From: Ignavibacteria bacterium
GTDB taxonomy: Bacteria > Bacteroidota > Ignavibacteria > UBA10030
Reading direction: 5' to 3'
Assembly: GCA_016873805.1 (NCBI GenBank)
Contig: VGVZ01000011.1
Coordinates: forward strand, 25,145-89,144
Length of the DNA: 64,000 nucleotides
The translations under genes were made by a program, and so were the position numbers. Below, piece by piece: positions 26,384 to 63,571 of this stretch. The notes below the pieces were generated by a model. The model had not been told where the DNA came from. It saw nothing but the letters and a program-made list of their open reading frames with translations, and ran no database searches. Each line of letters opens with the position of its first letter. The stretch's first letter is position 1.

Positions 26384-27241
26384 TTATCCGAGATAGGCAC
26401 GGAGCTGTTTGCTGCGGGATGCATGGCGCAGTCGGCGGATCGCCTTTTCCTTGATCTGTCGGACTCGCTCTCGAGTCAGATTGAACTTCTCGCCGATCTC
26501 TTCAAGTGTGAGCGAGTGCTCCTGGTCGAGCCCAAAGTAGAGTCGGATCACCTGAGCCTCTCTGTCGCTCAGTGTCGCCAGGGCTCGGCGCACTTCCACT
26601 TTGAGGGACTCATCCATCAAAATGTGATCGGGGGAAGGCTGGCGCTGATCCTGGATCACATCGAGCAGGCGGTTATCTTCCCCCTGTGCAAACGGGGCAT
26701 CCATTGAAAGATGCCGACCGGAGATCTTGAGCGTGTCGGAGACCTCGAACAGGGACATATCGAGTTCTTCCGCCAGTTCGCTGGCACTCGGTTCGCGCTC
26801 GAATTCCTGCTCCAGCGTGCTGAACGCTTTCCCTATCTTGTTCAACGCGCCGACGCGATTCAGCGGCAGGCGCACGATACGCGACTGTTCCGCAAGCGCC
26901 TGGAGAATCGATTGCCTGATCCACCACACCGCGTACGAGATGAATTTGAAGCCACGGGTCTCGTCAAACCTTTTGGCCGCCTTGATCAATCCCAGATTCC
27001 CCTCGTTGATCAGGTCGCCGAGCGAGAGGCCCTGATTTTGATACTGTTTCGCCACGCTGACAACGAACCGCAGATTCGCCTTTGTGAGCTTCTCAAGTGC
27101 TTTTTCGTCCCCCTTCTTGATGCGTCGCGCAAGATCGATCTCCTCCTGGGGAGTCAGCAGTTCGACCTTCCCGATTTCCTGAAGGTACTTGTCGAGGGAC
27201 TGGCTCTCTCGATTCGTGTATTGTTTGCTGATCTTTACCAT
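26384..27241 (-). CDS. rpoD: Primary sigma-70 factor, short FCB-type RpoD
   Basis: A 285-residue sigma-70 factor starting at region 1.2 ([20 protein letters not shown]), lacking the long N-terminal regions of the E. coli protein. Region 2 is classic ([43 protein letters not shown]), region 3 follows, and region 4 carries the helix-turn-helix ([20 protein letters not shown]). This is the usual form of the housekeeping sigma factor in Bacteroidota and relatives. It would direct RNA polymerase to most promoters of the cell. A terminator follows it. Confidence 0.94.
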
Positions 27242-27332: not shown

Positions 27333-27605
27333 TCATGCTTTTTGGAGATCGATGCGGTCCACAATGCCGACGATGCTCGCATCGACGGGAGCCATCTCGA
27401 CGGGCAGAGGGATGACCGCTTCACGCGCCGTAATGTAGAACACAATTTCTCCCGGTCCCGCTCCCACCGTGTCGACAGCCACGATTGGACTCCCGACCGG
27501 CTTTTGCTTCGCGTCCAGGGGCTGAACAAACTGGAGCTTGAAGCTATGTAGCGACTCTTCCTTGCGCGTCGCCCATATCGTTCCGATGACTTTCCCGAAG
27601 AACAT
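27333..27605 (-). CDS. EutN/CcmL bacterial microcompartment vertex protein, copy 2
   Basis: A 90-residue protein of the EutN/CcmL (BMC-P) family. It begins MFFGKVIGTIWATRKEES, the family hallmark, and ends with the VDASIVGIVDRIDL strand. BMC-P pentamers cap the vertices of microcompartment shells. It lies 20 bases downstream of a second copy. The two copies are clearly related but not identical, as is usual when a shell uses several pentamers. No hexameric shell protein gene is in the window. Confidence 0.93.
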   Translation of the reverse strand: MFFGKVIGTIWATRKEESLHSFKLQFVQPLDAKQKPVGSPIVAVDTVGAGPGEIVFYITAREAVIPLPVEMAPVDASIVGIVDRIDLQKA

Positions 27606-27625
27606 GAAAGATCCCGATTGAACGA

Positions 27626-27901
27626 TCAGGTTTTTACTACGATGTCGAGTTTGTCCACCACGGCAATAATGATGGCATCGACGGGCCGGTTCTTTGTCAG
27701 CGCCGTTTGCCGGGCCGAACTTCCTGAAGTCACCAGCACAACATCTCCCACGCCGGCCTGCACGCTGTCCACGGCGACAACAAACGTATCCTTCAGCTTG
27801 TAGTCCAGATCAATGTGTTTGACGATCTGGAGCTTCATCCCGACAAGCTCTTCGTCTTTTCTTGTCGCCCAAACAGTTCCGACCACTTTTCCCAAAAACA
27901 T
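27626..27901 (-). CDS. EutN/CcmL bacterial microcompartment vertex protein, copy 1
   Basis: A 91-residue BMC-P protein, starting MFLGKVVGTVWATRKDEE at the ATG at 27901; a more upstream in-frame start would add a poorly conserved tail. It contains the FVVAVDSVQAGVGDVVLV strand pair and ends VDAIIIAVVDKLDIV, matching EutN. It is downstream of deoB on the same strand, separated by about 95 bases without a visible terminator. It is predicted to close shell vertices together with the neighbouring copy. Confidence 0.93.
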   Translation of the reverse strand: MFLGKVVGTVWATRKDEELVGMKLQIVKHIDLDYKLKDTFVVAVDSVQAGVGDVVLVTSGSSARQTALTKNRPVDAIIIAVVDKLDIVVKT

Positions 27902-27996
27902 AATGTTTTCCTTCGAGTCGGGTTCAGTGCACTTCTGAGTGCGTTCGAACACTAGAGAACAGACGTATCGGAAGCTCTAATCGTTCCTCCCGATTC

Positions 27997-29178
27997 CTAC
28001 GCGACAGTACTGAAAAAACTCCGGCCGGCAAGTTCGTTGGCTGGAACCTCGAAGAACTCTGCGACGGTCTTCCCGGCATCGGCGAACGAGTCCCTCGTAC
28101 CGAGATCGATGCCTCTCTTGCCGTTCCTTCGATAGGTCAACAGCGGGACGAATTCCCTCGTGTGATCCGTGCTCGCGTCCGTCGGATCATTTCCGTGATC
28201 CGCGGTCAGGATCAGCAGATCATCATGTCCCAGGCACTCGATAATCCGCGGCACGGCTGAATCAAACGCCTCGAGCGCACGGGCAAAACCGCTCGGATCC
28301 TGACGATGACCGTAGAGCATGTCAAAATCGACGAGGTTCGCGAAAATAAGTCCCAAGGAATGAGAGGTCGAGTATTGGACAATCCTCTCGATCCCTTCCT
28401 CGTTTGATTTCGTATGTATTTTTTCGGTCAATCCCCGACCCGCGAACAGATCATCGACTTTTCCAATACTCACCGTCGGGATGTTCCGCTCTGTCAACAA
28501 ATCGAGCACGGTGGATGATGGAGGTGCAACGGAATAGTCCCGTCGATTCCCCGTTCTTACGTAGGCACCGGACGTGCCGATGAACGGACGTGCAATTACC
28601 CGACCGACTCGATGATCACCGACAAGAATCCTCTCACGCGCGATGCTGCAGAGGCGATAGAGTTCTTCCAGCTTAATGATCTCCTCATGCGCCGCAATCT
28701 GGAAGACCGAATCGCCGGATGTGTAGAGGATCGGGTATCCGGTCCTCCGATGCTCATCTCCCAATTCTTCAATGATCTGGGTTCCGGATGCGGGCTTGTT
28801 TCCAAGATATCCCTTGTGTCCTGTCGCTCGCAAAAAGGCAGTGAGCAAATCCTCAGGAAATCCATTCGGATAGAGCGGAAAGGGGCGCTCGGTAACAAGA
28901 CCGGCGATTTCCCAATGACCGGTGGTACTGTCTTTGCCGGCAGACTGCTCGGCCATCTTTCCGTAGCATCCTTCCGGAACGCTTGCCGGAGGAACGCCCT
29001 CAACCGGAGCGATGTTCCCCAGACCCAAACGCTGCAGATTCGGCAGATTCAATCCGCCGACGGCGATGCTGACGTTCGCGAGAGTATTCGCCGTTGCATC
29101 TCCGTAGGCCGGTGCGTCGGGAAGTGCCCCAATGCCCACGCCATCAAGGACGACGAATATGATCTTTTTCTGAGCCAA
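27997..29178 (-). CDS. deoB: Phosphopentomutase
   Basis: A 393-residue member of the alkaline phosphatase superfamily. Motifs are VVLDGVGIGALPDAPAYGD (metal-binding Asp), GKDSTTGHWEIAG (with the Thr that is phosphorylated) and LTADHGNDPTDASTDHTRE (metal ligands). DeoB moves phosphate between carbons 1 and 5 of ribose and deoxyribose, the step before cleavage of deoxyribose-5-phosphate by DeoC. Length is standard. Its position directly upstream of two microcompartment vertex genes is unusual and suggests a link to an encapsulated pentose or deoxyribose pathway (inference). Confidence 0.95.
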   Translation of the reverse strand: MAQKKIIFVVLDGVGIGALPDAPAYGDATANTLANVSIAVGGLNLPNLQRLGLGNIAPVEGVPPASVPEGCYGKMAEQSAGKDSTTGHWEIAGLVTERPFPLYPNGFPEDLLTAFLRATGHKGYLGNKPASGTQIIEELGDEHRRTGYPILYTSGDSVFQIAAHEEIIKLEELYRLCSIARERILVGDHRVGRVIARPFIGTSGAYVRTGNRRDYSVAPPSSTVLDLLTERNIPTVSIGKVDDLFAGRGLTEKIHTKSNEEGIERIVQYSTSHSLGLIFANLVDFDMLYGHRQDPSGFARALEAFDSAVPRIIECLGHDDLLILTADHGNDPTDASTDHTREFVPLLTYRRNGKRGIDLGTRDSFADAGKTVAEFFEVPANELAGRSFFSTVA

Positions 29179-29216
29179 GAACGATGGAACGCTGGAACGA
29201 GGGAATGACGTCAGGC

Positions 29217-29411
29217 CTATTCAAGAATCTGCTTTTCGTTGCACTTGCAGATTTGGACGTTCTGACGGCTGAACTTGTATGAACCGCGCTTCGATGCGGT
29301 TGCCTGCACGTACAGCGTAGGAATCTTGACCGTGCCGCACTTGGGACACTTGACCCCTTTTTCCTGGGATGCCTTTCGTGCCTTCTCTGCAAAATCAGTC
29401 TGCTTCGCCAT
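29217..29411 (-). CDS. Small zinc-ribbon protein of unknown function
   Basis: A 64-residue protein with a CPKC motif near residue 22 and a CKC motif near residue 55, enough for a partial zinc-binding site, and a basic middle (ASKRGSYKFSRQN). I do not recognise a named family. It starts 37 bases after the GGDEF-type sensor gene ends and is followed by deoB after 38 bases, so the set may be one operon. The start at 29411 gives MAKQTDFAEKARKASQ, plausible for a cytoplasmic protein. Confidence 0.6.
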   Translation of the reverse strand: MAKQTDFAEKARKASQEKGVKCPKCGTVKIPTLYVQATASKRGSYKFSRQNVQICKCNEKQILE

Positions 29412-31562: not shown

Positions 31563-34088
31563 ATGCCCGAGCAACCGATGAAAGCAGTTATCATGGCTGG
31601 CGGATTCGGCACGCGGTTGCGTCCACTTACGTGCAACACGCCGAAACCGATGGTTCCCATGGCGAACAAGCCCATGATGGAACACATCGTCGGGCTCCTG
31701 AACCACCACGGCATCACCGACATCGTTGCGACCCTCTTCTTCCATCCCGAAATGATCATGGATCATTTCGGCGACGGGAAACGCTTCGGCGTGAAGATCA
31801 GCTATCGCAAAGCGGAGGCCGATCTCGGCACAGCCGGGAGCGTCCGGAACGCCCACGATCTTCTCGGCACCAGGTTCATCATCATCAGCGGCGACGTGCT
31901 GACAGATTTCGATCTCACCAAAGCGATCGCATTTCACACGGCGAAGAAAGCAAAGGCGACGATTCTTCTCACTCGCTCTCCAAATCCGTTGCAGTTCGGC
32001 GTCGTCCTGACGGCGGACGACGGCAAGATCACGCGTTTCCTCGAAAAGCCGACGTGGGGGGAAGTGTTCAGCGACACTATCAATACCGGGATCTATATTC
32101 TCGAGCCCGAGATCCTCGACTTGATCCCTCCCGGCGAGGAATTCGATTTCAGCAAAAACCTCTTCCCGTTTCTCCTGGAACAGGAAATGCCGCTGTACGG
32201 CTACGTCGCAGACGGGTACTGGCGTGATATCGGAAATCTGAACGAGTACCAGGATGCACATGTCGATATTCTCCAGGGCCGCGTGAACATTCCGTTGGCG
32301 GGAACAAAGACCAACAACGCGTATGTCGGGGAAGGTTCAAAAATCGATACCAGCGAACGGAATGTGTCTGGTACCGTCCTCATCGGCTCCGACTGCCATA
32401 TTCATCACGACGTCGTGCTCTCGAACTCCGTGATCGGAGATCGTTGTGAGATCATGCCTGGCGCGGTCATTCGCAACTGCGTCGTCTGGAGCGACACGCA
32501 GATCGGCTCGGGTGCGGAGATGTCGTCCGATGTAATCGGGAACAAGTGTACCGTAGGTGATGAGGCCCGCATCATGGACAATGTGTTCGTGAGCGACCAC
32601 TGTACGATCGGACGGCAGAGCCAAATTTCCTCGAACGTCAAGATGTGGCCCGAAAAGGTGGTTGAGGAAGGAGCGACGGTCACCCGAAGTCTCGTGTGGC
32701 AGGATCGCTGGCTGCGCGAGCTTTTTACCGATGCGCGCGTGACCGGCATTTCGAACATCGAGATGAACGCGGAATTCGGCGCCAAACTCGGCGCGGCCTT
32801 CGGGGCGTTTGTTGGACCTGGTTCAACCGTTGTCGCGAGCCGCGACGGCGACAATGTTTCCCGAATGATCAACCGTGCAGTGATGTGTGGATTGATGTCG
32901 GCCGGGGTCCACTGCAACGACCTTCGGGCAAGCTCCATTCCCATTGTTCGTCACGAGCTTCGGAGCGGGAAGGAACGCGGCGGGATTCACGTCCGGAAGT
33001 CTCCCTACAACAAGAACTTCACCGACATTGTTTTCTTCGATGGCGACGGAAAAGACCTGCCGGTGAGCAAGACCAAATCGGTGGAGCGATTGTTCTTTGG
33101 AGAGGACTTTGCCCTTGCCTCGTACGAGAATGTCGGTTCGGTCTCCTTTCCGGAACGGACAACCGAAAGCTACATCGAGCGATTTCTGAACATGATCGAT
33201 ATCCCTCCCATCCAGGGCGCCGATCTGAAATTGGTGATCGACTATTCAAACGGCATCGCCTCGACGATCTTTCCCAACATTCTCGGAAACCTCAATGTCC
33301 AGGTCGTCTCGCTGAACGCCTATCTCGACAACCGCAAGCTCACCCGTTCAAAGCTGGAGCTCGAACAATCCCTCAAGGAGCTCTCGTACGTCGTGACGGC
33401 GTTGAAATACGATCTGGGAATCATGCTCGATGCCGGTGCGGAGAAGATATTTGCCGTCGATGAAAGCGGCCACGCCCTTTCCACGAAGCGGCTTGTCACC
33501 ATTATGACCAAGCTGATCCTGCAGGCACATCCCGAGATCAAGACGATTGCCATCCCCATTTCCGCCTCGCGCGAGATCGACGTGCTCTGTCAGGACTTGG
33601 GTGTGAAGCTGGTGTACACGCGGGATAGCCACCTCGCCATGATGGAAGCGGGAGCAAAGAAGGAGATCAAGTACATCGCGGGGACGCGGGGAGGATTTAT
33701 CTTCAGCGATTTCTTGTTCGCGTCCGACGGGATGTTTGCCGTCGCCAAGATGCTCGAAGGACTTGCTCTCGCCAAAACCCGACTGGGAACGCTTGATGCT
33801 GAGACAGTGCGGTTACACACCGTCAGCAACGATCTCGCATGCCCGTGGCATCTGAAGGGGCAAGTAATGAGGAAACTCATCACGCACACGGAATCCATCG
33901 AGCGCGATCTTGTCGAGGGAGTCCGGCTCTATCCAAAGAAACGAACGAACCATACGACGATCTTCATGAACCCGGATCCCACGCGGCCTGTCTTCCACAT
34001 CACAGCGGAATCAGAGGACGCGGAAATTGCGAAACAATTGTCGGATGAATACAGTAAGAGGATTGGTGAGTGGATCAAGTCGAAATAG
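31563..34088 (+). CDS. NDP-sugar pyrophosphorylase fused to degenerate phosphomannomutase domain
   Basis: An 841-residue fusion. Residues 6-240 are a nucleotidyltransferase (KAVIMAGGFGTRLRPLT, ISGDVLTDFD, EKPTWGEVFSDTINTGIYIL). Residues ~250-380 form left-handed beta-helix repeats (IGSDCHIHHDVVL and similar). Residues ~390-835 have the shape of a phosphomannomutase but the active-site loop is VRKSPYNK instead of TASHNP, the metal loop is LDAGAEK (residue ~622) instead of D-x-D-x-D-R, and the sugar loop GTRGGF replaces G-E-x-S-G-H. The N-terminal domain probably makes GDP-mannose or a similar sugar nucleotide; the C-terminal one is likely regulatory or structural. Related fusions occur in other bacteria. 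Confidence 0.88.
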   Translation: MPEQPMKAVIMAGGFGTRLRPLTCNTPKPMVPMANKPMMEHIVGLLNHHGITDIVATLFFHPEMIMDHFGDGKRFGVKISYRKAEADLGTAGSVRNAHDLLGTRFIIISGDVLTDFDLTKAIAFHTAKKAKATILLTRSPNPLQFGVVLTADDGKITRFLEKPTWGEVFSDTINTGIYILEPEILDLIPPGEEFDFSKNLFPFLLEQEMPLYGYVADGYWRDIGNLNEYQDAHVDILQGRVNIPLAGTKTNNAYVGEGSKIDTSERNVSGTVLIGSDCHIHHDVVLSNSVIGDRCEIMPGAVIRNCVVWSDTQIGSGAEMSSDVIGNKCTVGDEARIMDNVFVSDHCTIGRQSQISSNVKMWPEKVVEEGATVTRSLVWQDRWLRELFTDARVTGISNIEMNAEFGAKLGAAFGAFVGPGSTVVASRDGDNVSRMINRAVMCGLMSAGVHCNDLRASSIPIVRHELRSGKERGGIHVRKSPYNKNFTDIVFFDGDGKDLPVSKTKSVERLFFGEDFALASYENVGSVSFPERTTESYIERFLNMIDIPPIQGADLKLVIDYSNGIASTIFPNILGNLNVQVVSLNAYLDNRKLTRSKLELEQSLKELSYVVTALKYDLGIMLDAGAEKIFAVDESGHALSTKRLVTIMTKLILQAHPEIKTIAIPISASREIDVLCQDLGVKLVYTRDSHLAMMEAGAKKEIKYIAGTRGGFIFSDFLFASDGMFAVAKMLEGLALAKTRLGTLDAETVRLHTVSNDLACPWHLKGQVMRKLITHTESIERDLVEGVRLYPKKRTNHTTIFMNPDPTRPVFHITAESEDAEIAKQLSDEYSKRIGEWIKSK

Positions 34089-61882: not shown

Positions 61883-63571
61883 ATGGCACTCGACAAAGAC
61901 CTTCAATCGATTCAGGAAACACGGGACCTCCTCGCGCGAGCCAAACAGGCCCAACTCGCGTTCAAGTCTTTTGACCAGAAGAAGGTTGATGCCGTCGTCA
62001 AGGCAATGGCCGATGCGGGATTTGCCGCAGCAGAAAGACTTGCCAAGCAAGCCCACGAGGAAACGGGATTTGGAAAGCCGGCAGACAAGAAGAAAAAGAA
62101 TGAGTTTGCCACGAAACGAGTGTGGGAATCCATTAAGGAGCTTCCGACGGTCGGGGTCATCCACGAAGACAAAGAGAAACGGATCATCGAGATCGCCGAA
62201 CCGATGGGAGTCGTCGCCGCCCTCATCCCCTCAACCAATCCCACTTCAACGATGATGTTCAAGGCAATTATATCGTTGAAGGGACGAAACGCGATCGTCG
62301 CGAGCCCGCATCCGCGGGCCGTCCACAGCACACTTGAAGCAGCTCGCGTAATCTCACAGGCGGCAGAAAAAGCCGGTGCGCCGCCGGGATTGATCAATTG
62401 CATTTCCATTCCGACCACCGAAGGGACGAATGAACTGATGCGGCACAAATTGACCGCGGTGATTCTTGCGACCGGATCGAATCCCATGGTCAAGGCCGCC
62501 TACAGCTCCGGTAAACCTGCGTACGGCGTCGGTTCCGGCAATGTTCCAACGTTCGTTGAACGAACAGCGAACGTGCGCAAAGCGGTAGCCGACATCGTCT
62601 CGGGAAAGATGTTTGATTGGGGAGTGCTCTGTTCGACTGAATCCGGGGTCATTCTGGACGAACCGATCAAGAAACTGGCAATCGAAGAATTCAGAAAAAG
62701 AGGAGCGTACATCGTCTCGGATGACGAGCGCGACCGCTTGAGCAAGTTGATGTTCGACAAGAGAGGGGCGATCAATCCCGAGATCGTCGGAAAATCCCCG
62801 ACATTCATCGCCCAGAAAGCGGGCTTCGACGTCCCGCACGACACCACGTGTCTCATCGCTGAACTTCCGGGGATTGGGCCCGAGTATCCTCTTTCCCGTG
62901 AGAAACTCTCGCCGGTTCTATCGATGTTCACGGTTCGCGGCTGGCGAGAAGGGTGTGAGAAGTGCATCGAGATGCTTCAGTTCGGCGGAATCGGTCACTC
63001 AATGGTCATCCACTGCACCGATCCGGAAATCATCCTCCAGTTCGGGTTGGAGAAGCCTGCCTTCCGAGTTCTTGTGAATACGCAGGCCGCGCTGGGAGCG
63101 GTTGGATATACGAACGAACTGCTTCCTTCGCTGACTCTCGGTCCAGGCACATTCGGCGGCTCAATCATCTCGGACAACGTCTCGGCACAGCATCTCATCA
63201 ACATTAAGCGACTTGCGTTCGAAACCAGGCCGATCAATCCTCCCGAAAAGTTCCTGCATCCTTCGGGGCGCATCACACTTGGGTCAACTCCAGCCCCTTC
63301 GATTCGCGGAGTGGATGGGGGCGGCCGTGCCTCACACATTGCTTCATGGATTGAAGAAATCGACGAGCGGATTCGGCTGAAAGCGGGAAACATGCCGGTC
63401 ACTCTGAAGGAACCAGAGCCCAAGCATGTGACGCCTACTCCGGCGCCTGTCAGGGTGGAAAAGAAGAAGGAAGAACCGTCAACCAAGCCGGAAGTGCCGC
63501 CGAGCGGATTCGGCGTCGGTATTACGTCTGATGAGATTGACCGGATTATGCGTGAATTTGAGCGGCGATAA
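61883..63571 (+). CDS. CoA-acylating aldehyde dehydrogenase (EutE/PduP-like) with C-terminal encapsulation-like tail
   Basis: A 562-residue enzyme of the EutE/PduP type that turns acetaldehyde or propionaldehyde into the acyl-CoA with NAD. The core (~1-505) has VVAALIPSTNPTSTMMFKAI and the nucleophile Cys250 in DWGVLCSTESG. After the core comes a Pro/Lys-rich linker (~512-540) and an amphipathic 17-residue end, GITSDEIDRIMREFERR (546-562), with hydrophobic I, I, I, M, F spaced as in a helix. This is the layout of a microcompartment encapsulation peptide at the C-terminus. It fits the BMC vertex genes at 27333-27901. The downstream gene follows by 8 bases. Confidence 0.92.
   Translation: MALDKDLQSIQETRDLLARAKQAQLAFKSFDQKKVDAVVKAMADAGFAAAERLAKQAHEETGFGKPADKKKKNEFATKRVWESIKELPTVGVIHEDKEKRIIEIAEPMGVVAALIPSTNPTSTMMFKAIISLKGRNAIVASPHPRAVHSTLEAARVISQAAEKAGAPPGLINCISIPTTEGTNELMRHKLTAVILATGSNPMVKAAYSSGKPAYGVGSGNVPTFVERTANVRKAVADIVSGKMFDWGVLCSTESGVILDEPIKKLAIEEFRKRGAYIVSDDERDRLSKLMFDKRGAINPEIVGKSPTFIAQKAGFDVPHDTTCLIAELPGIGPEYPLSREKLSPVLSMFTVRGWREGCEKCIEMLQFGGIGHSMVIHCTDPEIILQFGLEKPAFRVLVNTQAALGAVGYTNELLPSLTLGPGTFGGSIISDNVSAQHLINIKRLAFETRPINPPEKFLHPSGRITLGSTPAPSIRGVDGGGRASHIASWIEEIDERIRLKAGNMPVTLKEPEPKHVTPTPAPVRVEKKKEEPSTKPEVPPSGFGVGITSDEIDRIMREFERR

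Follow-up and report, generated by a model that had tools for sequence, protein, structure and literature searches.

A candidate dispersed SPU-type microcompartment in Ignavibacteria, likely for deoxyribose-5-phosphate breakdown

The classical deo pathway (deoB, deoC) leads from deoxyribose-1-phosphate to acetaldehyde and glyceraldehyde-3-phosphate with no shell, and its DeoC has no N-terminal extension. The 64,000-nucleotide stretch of Ignavibacteria DNA analysed here (the window; C11:25145-89144, that is, contig C11 of its genome) carries deoB next to two genes for EutN-type vertex proteins (BMC-P) of a bacterial microcompartment (BMC), and a first-pass annotation of its letters had proposed that this set serves deoxynucleoside breakdown. 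Two described compartment types are relevant. SPU (sugar phosphate utilization) appears in surveys of 2014 (PMC4207490) and 2021 (PMC8217296), and the gene set given in the accessible parts of both is that of a compact locus in another genome of the same class (G085), which runs RpiB-DeoC-EutN-EutE-BMC-H, further genes and EutN. FRAG, reported from Ignavibacteriae, has shell genes at up to six sites and a BMC-P triplet; the accessible parts of the survey group it with aldehyde dehydrogenase types and give no obvious signature enzyme or function for it (PMC8217296). That survey was the only paper on FRAG or SPU compartments found in the open literature, most subscription papers and all bioRxiv preprints lying outside the scope of the search. 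A search for phosphopentomutase paired with a microcompartment, with subscription papers and preprints mostly outside, returned just an encapsulin survey and a Streptococcus transcriptome. From sequence comparison, we put at about 0.8 the probability that the genome of the window encodes a dispersed SPU-type microcompartment, likely for deoxyribose-5-phosphate breakdown and fitting the description of FRAG.

Enzymes and shell genes of the dispersed set

The genome (3.2 Mb in 60 contigs, 99% complete) holds compartment parts at seven sites over five contigs. The enzyme that would anchor the set to deoxyribose, and would be its signature enzyme, is an N-terminally extended DeoC. There are two PF01791 matches in the genome, and the one on contig C43 is the deoC equivalog, a protein of 288 amino acids scoring 286.2 bits against TIGR00126, above the cut-off, with the match beginning at residue 67. 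Ahead of this core lie a helix-forming stretch and then a conserved cysteine stretch. In the predicted structure a helix (residues 3-15) is joined by a low-confidence linker to a DERA core, which resembles the solved deoxyribose-phosphate aldolase 8qps with a TM-score of 0.92 by target and 62% identity. The cysteine stretch, CxxGxCxDxxCxxHN (residues ~22-37 of this DeoC, locus L014), is conserved in 29 of 30 loci and might hold a metal or iron-sulphur cluster. A search with the N-terminal part of this DeoC, taking candidates of 0.55-1.75 times the query length, recovered 112 proteins, all with a DeoC domain, and the corresponding search with the DeoC of G085 recovered 920, of which the best 120 were used onward. 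After removal of the enzyme core, a length filter kept 102 of the 112 and 119 of the 120 sequences, and HHalign matched the own-type with the SPU-type extensions at a probability of 96.9 (E 1.3e-10), against at most 1.9 for ten column-shuffled controls.

The second enzyme is the tailed EutE-type dehydrogenase that the first-pass annotation had placed in the window, and it is indeed there, at 61883..63571 on the plus strand, near the contig end. This acylating aldehyde dehydrogenase of 562 amino acids extends ~113 residues beyond its matched core; it scored 585.9 bits against TIGR02518 up to residue 449, short of the cut-off of 620.1, and the G085 enzyme scored 559.5. The last 16 residues of its tail (63521..63568, plus strand) form a predicted amphipathic encapsulation helix whose hydrophobic moment was equalled by 4% of shuffles, and a similar C-terminal stretch was seen in 15 other orthologue loci read. 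Encapsulation peptides are described, in the accessible text of PMC12339742, as amphipathic helices of ~18 residues that sit at a protein terminus and are attached through a disordered linker, and the DeoC helix and the EutE tail would on this pattern target the two enzymes as cargo to the shell.

The third enzyme is one of two RpiB proteins (PF02502) of the genome. The copy at C3:149.7 kb has 225 amino acids with an N-terminal domain of 75 residues, which shows weak likeness to EutQ (E 1.7e-4) and to TIGR02536 (E 1.5e-5), both below cut-off. At the position where the canonical RpiB of the same genome has Cys, presumably the active-site residue, all 12 extended RpiB sequences read (L156:1270-1947, L174-L185) have Asp, so that their reaction may differ. 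Within 17 kb around DeoC and 16 kb around the extended RpiB our queries recognised no other module gene.

Shell genes lie at four sites, and none of them combines BMC-H with BMC-P. A PF00936 profile search of the genome found four BMC domains, belonging to two BMC-H genes (C2:90.4-91.5 kb) and a two-domain BMC-T (C2:133.2-133.7 kb) directly after a PduS/RnfC-like gene. A third EutN (PF03319) is encoded at C18:48.5 kb, beyond the pair in the window. BMC-H/BMC-T genes, together with deoC and a nucleoside phosphorylase with BMC-like tails, had been named as checks on the proposal. Besides the shell genes and the N-terminally tailed DeoC, the genome has two purine-nucleoside-phosphorylase genes, one adjoining a CNT-type nucleoside transporter. 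PduL, which could recycle CoA, was not found in it, and Pta was not searched for. As side observations, the third EutN sits directly after a GlmM-type phosphosugar mutase gene (L010:8509-10252), and one BMC-H (L008:10387-10941) has a C-terminal extension of ~100 residues, which the long open frames of the second BMC match in many relatives suggest to be common.

Joint presence of the parts across the class

Every part was searched for in one set of 245 class genomes, a sample from a larger group, DeoC and RpiB matches below listing strength being counted as without extension. BMC domains were found in 97 genomes, EutN in 92 (all within the 97) and deoB over cut-off in 83, together with an EutE orthologue in 84 and the N-extended RpiB in 81 (80 of the 92 EutN-positive genomes and one other). 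An orthologue of EutE was defined as lying above the 41-44% matches, the only ones present in G042, G201, G209 and G239, which have no EutN. Every orthologue-bearing genome proved EutN-positive (both, 84; EutE only, 0; EutN only, 8; neither, 153). With the strict cut, a DeoC match starting at or before residue 24, the DeoC extension was counted in 77 of the 97 BMC-positive genomes and in 1 of the 148 BMC-negative ones, 78 in all, and with the loose cut of residue 40 in 91 of 245. All five parts (BMC, EutN, EutE orthologue, extended RpiB and DeoC by the loose cut) were present together in 77 of the 245 genomes.

Fisher tests of EutN against each of the three enzymes gave p-values of 5e-47 or lower. 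Since these p-values ignore ancestry, contrasts within families count more. The family of our genome comprises 18 genomes, 8 with the set, 3 with another BMC and 7 without BMC. These last 7 have no EutN, EutE orthologue, listed extended RpiB or DeoC starting at or before residue 24; 5 of them retain deoB and 6 a DeoC match. In one genus group of the family (g3), G033 has the set and a full DeoC extension, and G177, G188 and G208 are without shell genes, their DeoC N-termini being eroded or gone with the core kept. The N-extended DeoC of G033 is moreover encoded in the deoB/EutN run itself, four genes after EutN (def and fmt among them, named by eye).

The loose cut admits 7 BMC-less genomes. 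One of them, G139 (78% complete), has the full DeoC extension, and DeoC lacks the cysteine stretch in G042, G177, G188, G208 and G244; the seventh, G166, is taken up below. Conversely, 13 BMC-positive genomes lack the extension by the loose cut, and these were considered case by case and rejected as a contradiction of the pattern. Five of them (G089, G119, G170, G204 and G242) have EutN and deoB and are also without EutE orthologue and extended RpiB, and in G204 and G119 the shell genes (BMC and EutN) share compact loci with PduS and dehydrogenase genes. The compact BMC locus of G065 is of another kind, in G031 the contig ends where the DeoC match begins, G114 has a completeness of 74%, and G105, G107, G130, G165 and G222 have BMC without EutN. 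An assembly artefact as the source of the dispersal was likewise rejected on the distances in four one-contig genomes, which show the dispersal too.

Several observations weigh against the interpretation as a dispersed SPU-type compartment. The Fisher p-values, as stated, take no account of shared ancestry, and G013 is counted as a full set, yet its EutN genes adjoin another dehydrogenase. The amphipathicity of the DeoC N-terminal helix is not significant alone, 31% of shuffles equalling its hydrophobic moment; the HHalign match spans the cysteine stretch, not the helix; and the BMC-less G166 keeps a helix-like DeoC N-terminus without the cysteine stretch. The RpiB of G085 likewise has Asp at the position discussed above, a comparison that rests on this one SPU sequence. 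In 21 of the 84 genomes with both listed, one being the SPU genome G085, no more than 20 kb separate DeoC from the best BMC-H match, and the closeness of the two genes in the other 20, which are module genomes, indicates that dispersal is not complete everywhere. PduL, as noted, was not found. The remaining contrary observations concern deoB.

Position and part of deoB

The run in the window reads on the minus strand and was annotated in first pass as a zinc ribbon, deoB and two EutN/CcmL genes in one direction, which open reading frames and family matches confirmed. Its first gene, at 29217..29411, encodes a zinc-ribbon-like small protein of 64 amino acids, recognised as an open reading frame only, with no match in Pfam or NCBIfam. 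It is followed by deoB (27997..29178), whose product, a phosphopentomutase of 393 amino acids, scores above cut-off with two NCBIfam models (522.6 bits for PRK05362, 464.5 bits for TIGR01696) and is matched over residues 4-389 by solved phosphopentomutases (3m8w and others), with no terminal extension seen. EutN-A (27626..27901; 91 amino acids from ATG, PF03319 E 2.6e-29) has a frame that stays open upstream of the ATG to a GTG at 27952, and its closest solved chain is 5v74 of the EutN/CcmL family (E 1.4e-21), which we take to be a Haliangium chain. EutN-B (27333..27605; 90 amino acids, PF03319 E 1.3e-28) precedes an RpoD-like sigma-70 gene (26384..27241; Pfam sigma-70 regions 1.2, 2, 3 and 4). 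The first three gaps measure 38, 95 and 20 bases, and 91 bases separate EutN-B from the sigma gene. No terminator had been visible in the first pass; between 24000 and 31600, terminator-like matches (7, shuffle mean 7.5) and promoter-like matches (4, shuffle mean 3.7) were at chance level, with a single weak terminator-like hairpin lying across the end of EutN-A (27630-27613). Elsewhere in the window, 31563-34088 is a single open reading frame of 841 amino acids fusing nucleotidyltransferase, left-handed beta-helix and phosphomannomutase domains.

Relatives share the deoB-EutN-EutN order, a linkage that the first-pass annotation had suggested looking for. EutN follows deoB on the same strand at 44-827 bases in at least 62 of the 70 class genomes with both genes, a lower bound in that the best 150 EutN matches cover 87 of the 92 positive genomes. 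The EutE orthologue occurs in all 62, the DeoC extension (by the loose cut) in 61 and the extended RpiB in 60; in the sole genome without the DeoC extension, DeoC starts at a contig end. In three of the other genomes with both genes (G140, G215 and G242) deoB stands at the edge of its contig, and in G013 it precedes the sigma gene, with EutN elsewhere. In a collection of named organisms, two EutN genes followed deoB in 8 of the best 80 deoB loci, six labelled Ignavibacteria-type or Bacteroidetes, one Chlorobiaceae and one Caldithrix (L069, a metagenome-assembled genome). The deoB-EutN gaps are of two classes, short in 26 genomes and long in 36. As an observation in its own right, a PIN-domain gene (over the cut-off of PF01850) occupies the long gap in five loci read (L018:7291-7680, L020:2259-2648, L037:5860-6288, L093:3106-3546 and L166:7548-7946); 36 of the 62 adjacent genomes have room for one, and in L093 and L166 a small open reading frame stands ahead of the PIN-domain gene, as in toxin-antitoxin pairs.

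Against a functional bond between deoB and EutN, however, 22 of the 92 EutN-positive genomes have no deoB over cut-off. Seventeen of these 22 were read at EutN (all but the SPU genome G085, G035, G045, G054 and G144), and in 16 of 16 with the pair but without deoB the two EutN genes immediately precede sigma, 15 of these genomes also having the zinc-ribbon gene upstream; the seventeenth, G065, has its compact BMC locus instead. Conversely, relatives that lack BMC or have an unrelated one keep the order zinc ribbon-deoB-sigma (the BMC-less G188, also G170 and G089) or deoB-sigma (G177) with no EutN between, and deoB over cut-off occurs in 13 genomes without EutN. Since EutN holds its position before sigma with or without deoB, the deoB-EutN linkage looks largely positional. 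The zinc-ribbon-like gene is probably a positional neighbour as well, because it is kept beside deoB in G188 and before the EutN pair without deoB in the 15 genomes. Hence the chances are evenly balanced that a deoxyribose-type compartment is real and deoB a bystander in it, the vertex genes riding in a long-standing run of housekeeping genes (zinc ribbon, deoB, sigma) that would express them steadily. Such an explanation is compatible with the organelle as proposed here and would alter just the part of DeoB. It is opposed by the established pathway, which puts DeoB upstream of DeoC, by the presence of DeoC itself within the deoB/EutN run of G033, and by the deoB-EutN-EutN order in the Caldithrix-labelled L069. 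At most, DeoB is plausible as a cytosolic feeder of deoxyribose-5-phosphate where present, or as a positional neighbour. DeoB as cargo was rejected, as it has no terminal extension past the family model and no over-cut-off match in the 22 EutN-positive genomes. The proposal of a set for deoxynucleoside breakdown therefore survives in its deoxyribose-type compartment, which is the best reading, and is not supported in its use of deoB as the link. As a side observation, the BMC-less relative G208 has a deoB with several stops (L162, G208:C36, ~11.7-12.7 kb) whose neighbours are a sigma gene that is intact and a DeoC that lacks the cysteine extension.

It is also conceivable, if unlikely, that the organelle handles other or wider sugar phosphates, with deoxynucleosides one source among several. 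The Asp of the extended RpiB in 12 of 12 sequences hints at a changed reaction, and the 22 deoB-lacking EutN-positive genomes point the same way; on the other side, DeoC keeps the DERA fold and its 62% identity to a solved deoxyribose-phosphate aldolase, and the acetylating-acetaldehyde model is the nearest one for the dehydrogenase, which scores under the cut-off. That leftover shell genes and ordinary nucleoside genes co-occur by descent with no functional link is very improbable: shared ancestry does inflate the counts and the genes lie far apart in our genome, but the parts are absent in coordination within the family, the DeoC N-terminus is eroded or gone with the core kept in the BMC-less G188, G177 and G208, and of the five genomes that have EutN and deoB without an extended DeoC, none has the EutE orthologue or the extended RpiB, deoB not being beside EutN in four of them and at a contig end in the fifth (G242).

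The proposed organelle and its known relatives

In the organelle proposed here, deoxynucleosides would enter via the CNT-type transporter and then be phosphorolysed. DeoB, where present, would make deoxyribose-5-phosphate, which would cross the shell, and in the lumen DeoC and EutE would yield glyceraldehyde-3-phosphate, acetaldehyde and acetyl-CoA, with acetaldehyde kept from the cytosol. The PduS-like flavoprotein may recycle NADH, and the three EutN proteins would cap the vertices. What the sequences show directly is which genes are there, their families and positions, and how they are jointly kept or missing across the genomes sampled; the assembly of their products into one shell, the targeting of DeoC and EutE and this direction of flux are inferred.

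Taken further, the FRAG compartments of Ignavibacteria may, at what we consider even odds, be SPU organelles split into single housekeeping loci, with a shell built from genes dispersed along the chromosome, tagged DeoC as signature enzyme, vertex genes placed before the principal sigma gene, and routine deoxynucleoside turnover in place of an induced operon. A candidate enzyme set is now named for the FRAG compartments of the class, which makes their function testable, and, if true, would supply a function for a compartment type that the naming survey, in its accessible parts, leaves without one (PMC8217296). It also suggests that co-inheritance and predicted cargo tags can be enough to keep a whole organelle whose genes are not clustered, and locus-based surveys would therefore miss its enzymes.

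With the classical deo pathway the proposed system shares its chemistry, and it differs in having shell genes and an N-extended DeoC. The compartment of Haliangium ochraceum (HO), which the first-pass annotation had named as a known compartment with a DeoC-type aldolase, shares some features with the set, beginning with the closest solved chain of EutN-A, presumably from Haliangium. In the accessible parts of the survey, HO also shares the BMC-P triplet and, in some HO genomes, a distant PF01791 enzyme with an N-terminal extension like an encapsulation peptide, and it differs in having a main locus and in that deoB is not mentioned for it (PMC8217296). SPU is closer to our set than the HO type as described in these parts, and the DeoB link is not the anchor. 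By its published description, as far as accessible, our genome fits FRAG, its shell genes being spread over four sites that form no defined locus and including three BMC-P, a likeness judged by description (PMC8217296). SPU is described in the accessible parts of the surveys as loci with shell genes (PMC8217296, PMC4207490), unlike our seven sites; the main locus with BMC-H and BMC-P is not found in our genome, and the N-terminal domain of our extended RpiB is unlike that of the G085 RpiB. The DeoC-type PF01791 enzyme, the RpiB-type PF02502 enzyme and the shell proteins of the same descriptions are all present in our genome, as is a candidate for their aldehyde dehydrogenase acting on acetaldehyde, and the SPU DeoC has an N-terminal extension homologous to ours. 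A common origin with SPU is supported by the matching DeoC extensions and by the Asp common to RpiB.

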